Assembly: GCA_030154085.1 (NCBI GenBank)
Contig: JASKKR010000011.1
Location: 1 to 53,636 of the forward strand
Direction: 5' to 3'
From: Candidatus Cloacimonadota bacterium
GTDB taxonomy: Bacteria > Cloacimonadota > Cloacimonadia > Cloacimonadales > Cloacimonadaceae
DNA: 53,636 bases
The notes beneath the pieces were generated by a model, which was not told the origin of the DNA, searched no databases, and was given only the letters and a program-made list of their open reading frames with translations. The first letter of the stretch is position 1, and the number at the start of each line of letters is the position of its first letter. Made by a program: the position numbers and the translations under genes. Below are positions 40,515 to 46,344 of this stretch, one piece after another.

Positions 40515-41279
40515 TTAGTATGCCATAATCGAGCTTCCTGCATCGACATATATGATGTCTCCGGTTACGCCTGAAGCGAGATCAGAGAGCAGATACAGGG
40601 CGGTCTTGGCGATATCCTCCTGTTCAATATTTCGGGCTAGAGGAGCGGTCTTTTCGATGCGTCTTTGCATCTGAGACATTCCGCCTATTGCCGAAGATGA
40701 TAGGGTGCGGATCGGACCGGCAGAAATGGCATTGATCCTTACTCCTTTATCTCCTACGGAATGCGCCAGATAGCGTACTGATGCTTCCAAGGCGGCTTTA
40801 GCTATCCCCATAACTCCATAATTTGGCACTACCTTTTGAGAGCCGTAATAGGTAAGTGTGATGACTGATGAGCCCGGCTTTAGAAGTGCCTCTGCCTCAC
40901 GAACCACCGCGATCAGAGAATAGACAGAAATATCCATCGCCGTCAAAAAACCATGGCGGCTGGTATTGTGAAATGGGATATTGAGATCACTGGAGGGCGC
41001 AAATGCTACGCTATGTACCAAGTAATCTAAGCTCTCCCATTCTTCAGATAGGAGGCTCATCATGTTTTTGATGTCGTTGTCTTTACTGAGATCACATTCA
41101 AAACGCAGCTTAATACCCAGCTCATCGGCGATTGGATTCACCCGTTTCGCAATGCTGGGAGAGGCATAACTCAGTGCCAGTTCTACGCCTTGCTCCGTAA
41201 GCGATTTTGCGATCCCATATGCAATACTGTGTTTATCTGCGATCCCCAAAATCAGGGCTTTTTTGCCTTGCATCTTCAT
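40515..41279 (-). CDS. fabI: enoyl-[acyl-carrier-protein] reductase FabI
   Basis: FabI does the last reduction of each fatty-acid elongation round. The 254 aa have GIADKHSIAYGIAKSL (nucleotide loop), VHSVAFAP, the catalytic Tyr/Lys in YYGSQKVVPNYGVMGIAKAAL, and ISAGPIRTLSSSAI, the standard FabI pattern. The ATG overlaps the upstream lipoprotein stop by 4 bp, so fabI is the downstream member of the lipoprotein-mlaD run and could couple lipid synthesis with outer-membrane transport. Confidence 0.95.
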   Translation of the reverse strand: MKMQGKKALILGIADKHSIAYGIAKSLTEQGVELALSYASPSIAKRVNPIADELGIKLRFECDLSKDNDIKNMMSLLSEEWESLDYLVHSVAFAPSSDLNIPFHNTSRHGFLTAMDISVYSLIAVVREAEALLKPGSSVITLTYYGSQKVVPNYGVMGIAKAALEASVRYLAHSVGDKGVRINAISAGPIRTLSSSAIGGMSQMQRRIEKTAPLARNIEQEDIAKTALYLLSDLASGVTGDIIYVDAGSSIMAY

Positions 41280-42145
41280 TGTCCTTCTCCTTGCAGACGG
41301 CTCAGAGAGATCTGGGTCTTGGCAACCATGTCGTCGATGCCAAACTCGCTGAAGATGGTCTCGGCGCGCACATAATCCGCCAAAGCTTGGCGTTTATCCT
41401 GATTGGCTTCGTGGATCATCCCTCTAAGCCAATGGGCATAGCCCAAGCCGATGAAGTTCTCATGAAGCATATCCAAGGAAACTACTTCGTCGATATGATC
41501 GTTGGCCAAGCTGTAGTTTTGATTCAGATACTGATGATAAGCCATCGCATATAAAGCAGAGGAAAGCACGGAAGGATCGGCACTAAAATCCGACTTCAGG
41601 CTTTTCCGATATTTCCCCGCCAAGCGTTGCAGATCAGTATAGGTCTTTCCACTAAATCCAGGTCTGAGATATGATTCTGCTTGCAACTTATAGCTTAGAA
41701 TCTGCATTCTGACATGGATAGGATAGTCATATGAATCCTGGGCTGCTTTTTCCAAGGAAACATAATCCCCCTCCTGCTGCATCCTATAAAGATCCAAAAG
41801 CAGTAGGATATATCCGTAACCGGGTGCTGCATTTTTGACAAGATAGCTCATCTGAACATGCCGGGTTTCATAGTCTGAGAGATTACCCTCAAGATATGCT
41901 AACCTCGCTAAACCTGACAATGCGGACAGCTCTCCGGGAACATCTCCGAAAGAGCGATATTGTTTCAACGCAGATTCATACGTCTGCCGACTGTCAAGAA
42001 TACGGTGCTTTTGTTCAAGGTTTTGGGCCAAGCGAAGAGTCACATCCGCTGAACTTTTGGCAGGTGCTTGTGTCACCTTGGGAGGACTAGAACAAGCTGC
42101 CATGCCAACTAATAATATCAGCAAAGCAAATGCCCTAATTCTCAT
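41276..42145 (-). CDS. TPR-like lipoprotein associated with the MCE transporter
   Basis: The 289 aa start with a lipoprotein signal (lipobox GMAAC, Cys18). The mature chain is helical with TPR-like repeats (RILDSRQTYESALKQYRSFG; ALYAMAYHQYLNQNYSLAND; LADYVRAETIFSEFG). It overlaps mlaD by 11 bp and fabI by 4 bp, so it is tightly coupled. It may be the outer-membrane partner of the MlaD hexamer, but it is not related to MlaA or PqiC as far as I can see. Function is unproven. Confidence 0.78.
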   Translation of the reverse strand: MRIRAFALLILLVGMAACSSPPKVTQAPAKSSADVTLRLAQNLEQKHRILDSRQTYESALKQYRSFGDVPGELSALSGLARLAYLEGNLSDYETRHVQMSYLVKNAAPGYGYILLLLDLYRMQQEGDYVSLEKAAQDSYDYPIHVRMQILSYKLQAESYLRPGFSGKTYTDLQRLAGKYRKSLKSDFSADPSVLSSALYAMAYHQYLNQNYSLANDHIDEVVSLDMLHENFIGLGYAHWLRGMIHEANQDKRQALADYVRAETIFSEFGIDDMVAKTQISLSRLQGEGQ

Positions 42146-43223
42146 TTGGTACCTCGTTTATCCTGCCTTCAGGAGCGTATGATCGTATTCTGGAAGGAGG
42201 AATTCCCTTGCGTAATAGAGGATTATTGTTCAGTGCTTCCAAGGTAAGCGTCGCCCGCGATAGGGTCTCATTTAAATTGTTTATAATCAAAAGAATTTCC
42301 GGATTTGCCCGGGCCAAACTGCTTAAGATCTTTTCAGTCTCTTGCAGACTGCCGCTCAGGGCATATAATGAAGAGCTGAGTGGCGCAATCAAGACATCGC
42401 CTTCGGGGTCCAGCATCCGCAGGATGAGGCTATCCGGATCAGCATAGTTCTCTGCTGCGAGATTGACCGTAGAGACCAACTGCTCGATGTCGTCCATCTG
42501 ACCCGCAATGCTTTGGCTGATTTCAGTCAGATTGCTGACCATCCTGAGCACCATCCCGTCATCCGGCTGATACTCTCTATTGAGCCCTTCTGTCAATTTG
42601 CTCATCTGATCCAAATTTGCATTGAGAAGGTCGAGAGTTTGATCTACTTTTGAAATAAGGTCTGCGGTTGAGACTAAGATGCGCATAAGAGCACCCTTGT
42701 CGGCATTATTATCTCTGTTTAATTCAGTAGTGAGCATCTCTATGTTTTCGACGATAGTGCCGATGGGATCGCTACTTTTGGGAGAATATCGTTTTAATAG
42801 TTGGCGTCCCTGAGGAAAATCTGTGGAGATAATGTAGCTCCCTTCTTTGAGATAGTTATCTGATTGAGCAGCTCGCACGTATTCCAACGTGGTCTTATTC
42901 GTAATTGGAATAGTGGTACGATATATCACGCTCTCTTCCACCATAAGATGATTATATCTTTTTAGCACATAGAATTCAACATGGATCATGCCATCGTCAC
43001 CAAGCTCAAAATTGCGTATTCGCCCGATTTCAAAACCCTTGTACAGCACAGGTGTCTGGGATGATACTCCTATGGCATTTTCTAAAGATGTGGTATATAA
43101 AAAGCGTTTTTCAAACATGTTTTGCCGTATCGCGATAAACACGATAGTAAGGATCAGCACCACCACAGGGATGATGATGAACGCAAAAACGATTTGCCGA
43201 GTGTGTTCCAGCTTATATTTCAT
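42135..43223 (-). CDS. mlaD: MlaD/MCE-domain lipid transport protein
   Basis: MCE proteins form hexameric rings that shuttle phospholipids between membranes. The 362 aa have one N-terminal membrane helix (about 10-32), an MCE domain (about 40-120; SSQTPVLYKGFEIGRI, VEFYVLKRYNHL) and a long helical C-terminal region (about 150-330) that could form a tube or coil, longer than the 180 aa of E. coli MlaD. It lies 57 bp after the ATPase gene in the order mlaE-mlaF-mlaD-lipoprotein. Confidence 0.9.
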   Translation of the reverse strand: MKYKLEHTRQIVFAFIIIPVVVLILTIVFIAIRQNMFEKRFLYTTSLENAIGVSSQTPVLYKGFEIGRIRNFELGDDGMIHVEFYVLKRYNHLMVEESVIYRTTIPITNKTTLEYVRAAQSDNYLKEGSYIISTDFPQGRQLLKRYSPKSSDPIGTIVENIEMLTTELNRDNNADKGALMRILVSTADLISKVDQTLDLLNANLDQMSKLTEGLNREYQPDDGMVLRMVSNLTEISQSIAGQMDDIEQLVSTVNLAAENYADPDSLILRMLDPEGDVLIAPLSSSLYALSGSLQETEKILSSLARANPEILLIINNLNETLSRATLTLEALNNNPLLRKGIPPSRIRSYAPEGRINEVPNEN

Positions 43224-43280: not shown

Positions 43281-43928
43281 TCAATTCTCGCTGATATTTT
43301 TTTGATGCCTACTCAAATCAATCTGAATATCCGAAAAACTTGAACCAAATTCATCATCAATGCTGGCTATCAACATCGGATATGAGTCCTTTAGCCTGCG
43401 TAAGTTGCGGTAGAGGACTATTCTTTCATTTTTATTCAAAAGGAAAAAGGGATTATCCAACAATAGAACTTGGGGCGAGATGAGCAAAGTGCGCACAAAG
43501 CCTAGAAGCTTCAATTGCCCTGGACGATACGTTGCCGGACGCTGTTGTATATCAAGATCAAGTTCAAATGTATCCAACCAACTTGCAATCTGTTCATCGA
43601 TCTCTTTCTCGTCCAATTCCGGTTGTAACCACCTCAGTGGCAAAAGCAGATTCTCTCGTAAAGACAGATTGGACAGCATTACCCCCTCATCAAAGACATA
43701 ACCCAATTTCTTGATGTGGGGATCATCTTTGAAAAAACTGTGCATATTTTGCTCACCAAAGTAGACCTCACCACTACAAATTTCATCCAAACCCGCCAGC
43801 AATGCCAAGATCTTACTGGCAAGATCCCCGGACGGATCATAAAGCAAAGTCACTTTACTCAGATCCATACTCAAACTGAGATCTGAAAGTCCTTCTTGGC
43901 TGCATACCTTATCAAATCTAACTATCAT
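43281..43928 (-). CDS. mlaF: MlaF-like ABC protein with degenerate nucleotide-binding motifs
   Basis: Position between mlaE and mlaD and overall length (215 aa) identify it as the MlaF-type subunit. Its ATPase motifs are eroded: Walker A reads DPSGDLASK at 31-39 (Ala37 where Lys is expected), the Q-loop Gln is Asp (YVFDEG), the signature is YRPGQ instead of LSGGQ, Walker B ends LLLDNP (Asn for catalytic Glu), and the H-loop His is absent (ASIDDE). The frame is intact and the fold looks preserved, so it is not a pseudogene by sequence. ATP hydrolysis seems unlikely. The start is ATG 43928, overlapping the mlaE stop (ATGA); an upstream in-frame start at 43949 is less likely. Confidence 0.85.
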   Translation of the reverse strand: MIVRFDKVCSQEGLSDLSLSMDLSKVTLLYDPSGDLASKILALLAGLDEICSGEVYFGEQNMHSFFKDDPHIKKLGYVFDEGVMLSNLSLRENLLLPLRWLQPELDEKEIDEQIASWLDTFELDLDIQQRPATYRPGQLKLLGFVRTLLISPQVLLLDNPFFLLNKNERIVLYRNLRRLKDSYPMLIASIDDEFGSSFSDIQIDLSRHQKNISEN

Positions 43929-44647
43929 GATAATACCCAAAATAACCAAGTGATGAGTATGTCACATAAAATCACGGCAAAGATAGAGATCACCACAGCT
44001 TTGATGGTGCGCTGCGGTACTTCTGTACTCGCATGACCCACTTGCATGCCGTGATAAGTTGAAACCAATGATATGATCACCCCAAAACTTATGGATTTGA
44101 TTATACTTGAAATCACGTGGGAAATCTTGAGTATTGATAGAAAATCGTTCATAAAAGTTCGAAACTCTAAAGGATAAAAGAATCGAGAAAAGAGCCATCC
44201 TCCAAGCACTGCGATGAGATTGAAATATAGGGTCAAGATCACCATCGCTATCACGACTCCGATGATCCGGGACACCACCAAATAGCCTATCGGAGAAATC
44301 CCGAAGGATTCAATCAGATCAATCTCTCTGCGCACTTTCATATTACCCAATTCTGTAGATATCGCCGTGCCACTACGCGCAACCACGACCAAAGCCGTCA
44401 AGATTCCCGAAAGCTCATTTACCACCACCGTGACCAGGATCACATGTACCCAAATGCCCTGCCCAAAATCCGTCAGCAAATTCATCCCCTGCAGGATCAC
44501 CAACCCCCCAATCGCCAAAGCTAAAAAGCTAATCAAAGGGAGCGCTTCGTATCCCGTGAATAAAATCTGCCTTAGTACCACCATCGAGCTTACGTGGCGA
44601 TTGGATTTCAGGCGGAAAGCCTCTTGAAGGGTTATAGCAATGAACAA
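43925..44647 (-). CDS. mlaE: MlaE-type ABC permease
   Basis: MlaE is the inner-membrane permease of the phospholipid transporter. The 240 aa have five to six membrane helices and the coupling-helix region ARSGTAISTELGNMKVRREIDLIESFGISP, which matches the MlaE consensus, including the ELG-MKV core. The start is TTG 44647, with AAGGGG seven bases upstream inside a terminator stem. An internal ATG at 44584 is the alternative but has no ribosome site. The stop overlaps the ATPase ATG by 4 bp. Confidence 0.92.
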   Translation of the reverse strand: MFIAITLQEAFRLKSNRHVSSMVVLRQILFTGYEALPLISFLALAIGGLVILQGMNLLTDFGQGIWVHVILVTVVVNELSGILTALVVVARSGTAISTELGNMKVRREIDLIESFGISPIGYLVVSRIIGVVIAMVILTLYFNLIAVLGGWLFSRFFYPLEFRTFMNDFLSILKISHVISSIIKSISFGVIISLVSTYHGMQVGHASTEVPQRTIKAVVISIFAVILCDILITWLFWVLS

Positions 44648-44672
44648 AAAAAAGCCCCTTGCGGACTTTTTT
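44646..44672 (-). terminator. intrinsic terminator after the Ig-domain gene, overlapping the mlaE ribosome site
   Basis: On the minus strand AAAAAAGTCC (44672-44663), a GCAA tetraloop and GGGGCTTTTTTTT form a near-perfect stem (one G-U pair) with an 8-base T-run. It lies 38 bp after the stop of the 44710-45060 gene. The right arm also provides AAGGGG, the only Shine-Dalgarno for mlaE. Confidence 0.85.
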
Positions 44673-44709
44673 CGCTTGTCTTTGTCATGTCGTTATATTT
44701 TTGTGTGTC

Positions 44710-45060
44710 TTACTTCAATATGAGCGTCTTCTTTGTGGAGGTATAGCGACTTTGATAGTTTATCACTACAGAGTATTCTCCAGGCATTACCCAGTTACCA
44801 TAGTCGTCTTCGCGTTCCCAAATGAAAGTTTCGCTCTTAGATATAGCACCACTGTAAATAGTGCGAATCACTTGCCCACGCTGATTCTCGATGGTCAGGA
44901 TAATCTCTGTCTCTTGGGCAAAAGCCAGCTCAATTGCACACTTATCTTTCATCGGATTGGGGCTTATTTCAAACACTTGCAAGTTACTTTTGCTTTCTGC
45001 TAACAAACTAGCTGCAAAAAGCAATAATAGTCCGACAACTAAAAATGCTCTTTTTTTCAT
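44710..45060 (-). CDS. small secreted FlgD/Ig-like domain protein
   Basis: The 116 aa start with a signal peptide (MKKRAFLVVGLLLLFAASLLA). The rest is a single domain with ISPNPMKDKCAIELAF, RGQVIRTIYSG and MPGEYSVVINYQ, the pattern of FlgD-type Ig / T9SS-associated sorting domains (SPNP...G.Y). These are normally at the C-terminus of larger secreted proteins; here the domain stands alone. It could be a stand-alone adaptor or the remnant of a larger protein. A strong terminator follows. Confidence 0.75.
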   Translation of the reverse strand: MKKRAFLVVGLLLLFAASLLAESKSNLQVFEISPNPMKDKCAIELAFAQETEIILTIENQRGQVIRTIYSGAISKSETFIWEREDDYGNWVMPGEYSVVINYQSRYTSTKKTLILK

Positions 45061-45114
45061 GGTATCCTCACATTTTCCTATTTAACTTCTTTATTACACA
45101 CGCAATTATCGTTC

Positions 45115-46011
45115 CTATATGAGATTTCTTTCACAGAGGATAATCCCTCCCATCACTCCAGAACGATTGCCATAACCAGCCAATTCACAACGGAATGTCT
45201 CACGATGCGCTTGTGGCAGCAAGTGCCCTACTGCCTCCCTGATGCGATTTATGTTGTAAAGCCCCAGCTCCATGCCACCTCCACCGAGGACGATCAGCTC
45301 AGGATCCATGACTATCACAAGGTTTGCTAGCGCACGGATCAATACCTCTTCCCCTTCGGAAATAATCTTGTCCAGTTCATTTACATCTGATCTACGCTCG
45401 ATCAGCTCCGGTAAGAGACGATTCGCATATAATGAGCCTTGTGCCCGCAATCTACGATAGATACCATCTACTGAACTATACGCTTCCAAGCAACCGTGCT
45501 GCCCGCATGAGCAGGATTCTCCGCCGGGAACCATATTGCAGTGACCCAGCTCAGCAGCATAGCCATGGCTTCCATGATATATCTGCCCGTCCAACACCAT
45601 CCCGGAGCCGATTCCGCTTCCAACGGTCACTCCCATACAGCTCTCTGCTTTGTAATACTCTGCTTCTGCCAGGGTCATCAGATTGGCGTCATTATCGACA
45701 AAGATGGGTAAGTCAAGTTCAGCTGGTACCAGCTCTTTGGGTGACATCCCACTCAAAAAGGGAATATTGGGATTCACTCCTCTGATTATAGCTTCGGGCT
45801 GACTGATGGTTCCCGGACTGCCAATTCCGATTCCGGCTAGATCCCAGTCTGCAGCTTCCGCAAAGATATCCTCAAATATGCGGCTAAAGGTAGCCCGATC
45901 TTTAGATTGAAGGCGAATCGAAGCAAAATATTGTAAACCTTGTTTACTGTCTCCAATCCCATACTTTATGGAAGAAGCTCCAATATCTATTCCGAGATAT
46001 CTCTGTATCAT
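45115..46011 (-). CDS. ROK-family sugar kinase (glucokinase-like)
   Basis: From ATG 46011 (AGAGGTGAGG just upstream) the protein is 298 aa; a longer frame to 46095 has no ribosome site. It has the ATP loop GIDIGASSIKYG, SPGTI, FVDNDANLMTLAE, GTGIG-like SGIGSGMVLDG, and the zinc/ROK motif GHCNMVPGGESCSCGQHGCLE, with LGGGGM near the C-terminus. It lacks an N-terminal DNA-binding domain, so it is an enzyme rather than a regulator. The substrate is likely glucose or a related hexose, but not proven. Confidence 0.9.
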   Translation of the reverse strand: MIQRYLGIDIGASSIKYGIGDSKQGLQYFASIRLQSKDRATFSRIFEDIFAEAADWDLAGIGIGSPGTISQPEAIIRGVNPNIPFLSGMSPKELVPAELDLPIFVDNDANLMTLAEAEYYKAESCMGVTVGSGIGSGMVLDGQIYHGSHGYAAELGHCNMVPGGESCSCGQHGCLEAYSSVDGIYRRLRAQGSLYANRLLPELIERRSDVNELDKIISEGEEVLIRALANLVIVMDPELIVLGGGGMELGLYNINRIREAVGHLLPQAHRETFRCELAGYGNRSGVMGGIILCERNLI

Positions 46012-46344
46012 CCTCACCTCTTTAATTTTTCCATATTTACAATATGATTCTTTCTCGCCATTTACCAAGCCAGAAATGATCATCCAGCTAAGCATAAAAT
46101 TGTGTCCTTCTCAGTTGGCGGGGATAAGTAAGACTATGGTCTAACCAAGCATAATCTGGACATTTAGATAATTGTACTTGACGTAGAAACCAAGCTGGAG
46201 AAGAAAGTACTTAGCTGTATATTAATTCCATAGTGTGTAAAAACGAGGTTAGAAAGCGCTCCTCAAATAACTGAGAAACAATAAGTTGATATTTATGTCA
46301 ACACTTGCGACTCAACTAAATTTTCTAAAAAAGGATTGGAAATA
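46012..46344. other. 333-bp gene-free stretch between divergent ROK kinase and membrane methyltransferase genes
   Basis: An 18-bp imperfect palindrome GTTGATATTTATGTCAAC lies at 46285-46302, about 45 bp before the next start, and could be an operator. A TTGACG at 46178 has no adequate -10 partner. Nothing else is recognised. Confidence 0.4.

Follow-up and report, generated by a model that had tools for sequence, protein, structure and literature searches.

A degenerate MlaF-type subunit retained beside MlaE in Cloacimonadota: a probable pseudo-ATPase

Introduction

What does an MlaE/MCE transporter do with an ATPase subunit whose catalytic residues have all been replaced, and why would such a subunit be kept? 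The question is raised by an operon in the window, the whole stretch of 53,636 nucleotides of Candidatus Cloacimonadota DNA analysed here, in which the gene in the position of mlaF encodes a degenerate ABC protein, referred to below as pseudo-MlaF. It has been disputed whether MCE and Mla systems depend on ATP, and which way lipids move in its absence. In this MlaE-type transporter selection seems to have done away with the ATP cycle and preserved the other parts, and living relatives still show stages of the loss; the system thus offers a natural test of what a permease and its MCE ring do without their engine.

The pseudo-MlaF operon

The operon comprises four genes, listed here with the coupling-helix region of the permease.

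43925..44647, minus strand: mlaE permease gene (PF02405); the listed TTG start is uncertain
44267..44383, minus strand: MlaE coupling-helix region, residues 89-127, TELGNMKVRREIDLIESFGISP, kept phylum-wide
43281..43928, minus strand: pseudo-MlaF, degenerate ABC nucleotide-binding subunit of 215 aa (ATG at 43928, stop at 43281)
42135..43223, minus strand: MlaD-like protein of 362 aa with a single MCE domain and an extended C-terminal region
41276..42145, minus strand: TPR protein with a lipoprotein-like signal, LLVGMAACSS (by eye), encoded after mlaD in the operon

The stop codon of mlaE overlaps the start codon of pseudo-MlaF by four bases (ATGA), and the pseudo-MlaF frame runs from ATG to stop with no internal stops. 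The first-pass annotation had credited this gene with an intact frame and its proper place in the operon, and both descriptions hold, as the frame is open and the gene order is kept in relatives. Its statement that MlaE and MlaD look normal is accurate for MlaE, which matches PF02405 in Pfam with 206 bits, and only partly so for the MlaD-like protein, where the MCE domain (PF02470) is present but scores barely over the cut-off (26.4 versus 25.1 bits) in a protein of the long type. No second nucleotide-binding domain (NBD) is encoded in the operon, and no MlaB/STAS gene is seen in it.

A terminator-like hairpin (44647-44673) lies directly before mlaE and touches the listed TTG start; the true start of mlaE may be located further in. 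Upstream of mlaE (44710-46095) are genes for a small FlgD-Ig-like protein and a ROK-like protein, both recognised by eye, which stay in this place in most of the window's family. On the other side, a FabI-like enoyl reductase gene (40515-41279) follows 3' of the TPR gene with a 4-base overlap and possibly links the operon to fatty-acid synthesis; it went undetected beside the system in the longer loci from relatives. A sigma-70 promoter scan gave a result no better than shuffles, and a viral scan gave no match.

Loss of the nucleotide-binding residues

Pseudo-MlaF belongs to the ABC fold by homology (Pfam ABC_tran, 42.4 bits, 1.4e-10, above the cut-off) and matches the solved MlaF of P. aeruginosa (7ch8) at 1.2e-11, with MalK-type chains scoring slightly better. 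A single-sequence AlphaFold2 model was of low quality (pLDDT 43.7) and was left unused. The residues were assigned in an alignment of 39 degenerate NBDs, including that of the window, with 32 canonical MlaFs of the same phylum and 7ch8.

43812..43838, minus strand: Walker A position, DPSGDLASK (residues 31-39) for G-x-x-G-x-G-K-T-T, Lys replaced by Ala37
43689..43691, minus strand: Q-loop position, Gln replaced by Asp80
43641..43688, minus strand: post-Q-loop segment, residues 81-96, the most strongly conserved part of pseudo-MlaF and the presumed contact with the permease
43515..43529, minus strand: signature position, YRPGQ (134-138) for LSGGM/Q
43449..43469, minus strand: Walker B position, VLLLDNP (154-160), Asp158 kept and catalytic Glu replaced by Asn159
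43350..43373, minus strand: H-loop/switch position, LIASIDDE (186-193), His replaced by Ile190, then acidic residues

Every residue call made at first reading (Ala37, Asp for the Q-loop Gln, YRPGQ, Asn for the catalytic Glu and no H-loop His) is borne out by this alignment, anchored as it is on a solved MlaF, and it contains no canonical residues at shifted positions. A sequencing error or frameshift is ruled out because orthologues at about 32-60% identity have the same degenerate state.

Distribution and order of the losses

Of 125 genomes from the phylum, 41 contain a match to the MlaE of the window at E ≤ 1e-38; these relatives are 49-83% identical, with 62-83% identity inside the window's family. 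The adjacent NBD is complete in 39 of the 41 and is degenerate, with an open frame, in each of the 39; of the other two, one is broken by Ns and looks alike (G060) and one lies at a contig edge (G001). The order mlaE-NBD-mlaD-TPR is found in every stretch long enough to read, and the TPR gene is retained alongside the system across the phylum; in some of the 3.5-kb loci MlaD or the TPR protein was undetected, partly because the stretch ends.

The Gly of the signature (LSGGQ) and the His of the H-loop are missing in all 39 NBDs, which come from six families of the phylum, and the Walker A Lys is missing in 32. Walker A GK is retained in the remaining seven orthologues, all outside the window's family, and nucleotide binding may therefore persist in these. 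Within the window's family Lys, Gln, Glu and His are missing together in 24 of 24 members, and the Walker B Asp is retained in 22. The Lys position is occupied there by A, S or P with neighbouring columns that are more variable still; the alignment of this family contains no Gly-rich loop with a Lys replacing Walker A, and no conserved substitute for the H-loop His was found in the alignment. A C-terminal motif, GVEDEI/V, occurs in most NBDs of two families (f9 and f13, L087-L096) but not in those of the window's family, which are shortened.

The history of the losses was read on the MlaE tree, which is independent of the NBD columns. Signature Gly and H-loop His each require one loss on this tree, and Walker A Lys, catalytic Glu and Q-loop Gln about three changes each. 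GK is kept in f6, f7 and f9 and lost in f1, f10 and f13, where f10 has a long branch of unsure position. The degenerate NBDs all fall on one side of a 100/99 branch that separates them from the canonical MlaFs of the phylum. Signature and H-loop were lost first, in the common ancestor, and Walker A, the catalytic Glu and the Q-loop followed later in several lineages, so that the five changes of the first-pass annotation are all present but did not arise simultaneously. Intermediate stages of ATP loss thus seem to be preserved within the phylum.

Selection and constraint

Constraint was compared as column entropy in 22 genomes that hold both a canonical MlaF and the pseudo copy, with 10,000 random column sets as reference. 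In canonical MlaF the 15 catalytic positions do not vary at all (zero entropy), whereas in the pseudo copy their entropy is 1.56 bits and they behave like random columns (mean of 1.73 bits, P=0.25). Over the 16 columns that follow the Q-loop mean entropy drops to 0.54, versus 1.73 over all columns, and none of the 10,000 random sets is as low; from what is generally known of ABC transporters, we take this segment to be a permease contact. On the side of the permease, the coupling-helix region of MlaE is likewise constrained (mean entropy 0.61 versus 1.08 bits elsewhere in MlaE), and the coupling helix of MlaE is known to bind MlaF (PMC7790496). Estimates of dN/dS in close f13 pairs are 0.09-0.28 for the pseudo-NBD and 0.03-0.08 for MlaE, and six residues are fixed in the window's family (R130, P131, K140, R169, D191 and F194). 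Mean pairwise identity in the same genomes is 0.42 for the pseudo-NBD versus 0.73 for canonical MlaF. Catalytic residues have been lost in all relatives, and frame, operon, purifying selection, docking segment and coupling helix have been kept. The suggestion at first reading of a pseudo-ATPase is strongly supported by the phylum-wide degeneracy, the relaxed catalytic positions and the constrained permease-docking segment.

Conserved acidic residues have also been gained in the former ATP pocket of the window's family (residues 31, 34, 80, 192 and 193 of the protein encoded at 43284-43928), and this acidic pocket might bind a metal ion.

Canonical Mla components in the same genomes

The window's own genome (G000; 1.95 Mb, 99.75% complete) encodes three MlaE, three MCE proteins and two canonical MlaFs, so the search for a second, intact MlaF recommended at first reading was successful; the other MlaE proteins account for that number. 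One canonical MlaF (on contig C16) adjoins a STAS-MlaE, the other (on C40) has no MlaE or MCE protein beside it, and the third MlaE adjoins the pseudo-subunit. A canonical MlaF is encoded in 44 of 44 genomes checked, at least one and mostly two per genome. These genomes include four relatives without a detected pseudo system; three have two canonical MlaFs and the fourth, which is 80% complete, has one. Genomes that carry the system usually encode three MlaE and the others usually one or two, and for this reason the pseudo-MlaF system looks like an addition to canonical-type systems. In G006 and G008 three MlaE matches are owing to contig-edge fragments; these fragments, at contig starts, were rejected as copies of this system, the next gene being the one that follows the C20-type MlaE.

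In the window's genome that MlaE is encoded on C20 (L052, 5137-5886) between dnaB and a solute-binding-protein-like gene. It is not beside the canonical MlaF of C40 (L049, 4906-5622) or an MCE protein gene on C1 (L050, 4958-5857), nor are these beside each other, and a second Mla-type set is apparently split over three contigs; that the three products act together is a guess.

A probable scaffold without an ATP cycle

The locus is probably best explained by a lineage-wide pseudo-ATPase that is kept as the docking scaffold of an MlaE/MCE lipid conduit, without ATP hydrolysis at the NBD. Pseudo-MlaF would no longer bind or hydrolyse ATP in the ABC manner and would dock on the coupling helices of MlaE, keeping the MlaE/MCE complex assembled or fixed in a single shape. 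Lipids would pass through this complex, or be exchanged by it, between the inner membrane and the MCE protein in the periplasm, and their flow would be driven by lipid gradients or another partner and not by an ATP cycle at pseudo-MlaF. What we infer in this is the absence of nucleotide binding, the scaffold role, and the passive nature and direction of transport. Transfer of lipids from MlaD to MlaC is reported to be independent of ATP hydrolysis and MlaE to be open towards the MCE ring when ATP is absent (PMC10212509), and Pqi and Let have no ATPase subunit, which makes a gradient- or partner-driven conduit the most economical reading. A point against this reading is that a dead NBD alone does not leave a working Mla transporter: when the Walker A Lys of MlaF is mutated in A. 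baumannii, whose Mla system is canonical, the mutant is dominant-negative for barrier function (PMC6365058). A more far-reaching version, tentative and somewhat short of an even chance, is that this is an ABC lineage wholly without ATP, in which MlaE is an ATP-independent lipid channel or exchanger and the motor has turned into a scaffold, in the window's family possibly a cation-sensing gate by way of the acidic pocket.

In ABC dimers each composite site combines the Walker A and B motifs of one subunit with the signature of its partner, and since the pseudo-subunit has lost both Walker A and signature, a mixed dimer would have two incomplete sites. This makes it unlikely that pseudo-MlaF pairs with one of the two canonical MlaFs in an asymmetric ABC transporter with one active site, comparable to heterodimeric exporters with one degenerate site. 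Such a partner is encoded in every genome checked, and degenerate sites in heterodimers are described with a structural and mechanical role (PMC7756269), but the operon has no second NBD and three of the four checked relatives without a detected system have the same two canonical MlaFs, so that the canonical copies do not depend on the pseudo system. A regulatory subunit, which would gate the MlaE conduit by binding a nucleotide, a metal ion or a protein that it does not turn over, is equally improbable. It would agree with the Walker A GK that persists in three families and with the acidic nature of the old ATP pocket in the window's family, where the 24 pocket positions include six of the nine columns with over 80% acidic residues (hypergeometric P=7e-5, which is optimistic as the pocket was defined after seeing the columns). 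However, some of the pocket acids are ancestral (Walker B Asp158, the residue after the His, and Glu81), and the pocket of other lineages is not acidic.

Ordinary decay, with a pseudogene in progress and a non-functional system, could account for an NBD that changes much faster than the canonical MlaF of the same genomes, but it is ruled out as far as a pseudogene is concerned by the open frames of all 39 complete orthologues, dN/dS well below 1 and the residues fixed across the family, and the partner MlaE is kept as well; there is hardly any probability left for it. Just as improbable is a non-canonical yet active ATPase that works through shifted or substitute residues: the Pfam ABC domain still scores above the cut-off and most of the window's family have the Walker B Asp, but neither the variable Lys position nor the missing His has found a replacement.

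Relation to known systems

As a pseudo-ATPase scaffold, pseudo-MlaF would link the ABC-driven Mla class to the ATPase-free Pqi/Let class. Like the MlaFEDB-type MCE ABC transporter (PDB 6xbd, 7ch8), the system encodes together an MlaE with a coupling helix, an MCE protein and an ABC-fold subunit. It differs in the absence from this subunit of the Walker A Lys, the Q-loop Gln, the signature motif, the catalytic Glu and the H-loop His, and in having a long MlaD and a TPR protein and no visible MlaB/STAS gene in the operon. With PqiABC and LetAB (YebST) it would share an MCE lipid conduit thought to run without an ATPase subunit, but their membrane protein is PqiA or LetA, whereas here it is a PF02405 MlaE with a retained, apparently dead ABC fold. 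TM287/288, TmrAB and the ABCC family, which have one degenerate site, also combine lost catalytic residues with a structural NBD that is retained; there one site is active, whereas this operon has a single NBD, which is degenerate, and both sites of its homodimer would be degenerate too.

Searches of the open PMC literature turned up no description of a degenerate MlaF. The 'minimal' MlaEFD system of Veillonella parvula (PMC10665443) is alike in having MlaE, an ABC subunit, a long MlaD and no MlaA or MlaC in the operon, but the MlaF there has been described as very similar to the MlaF of model diderms.
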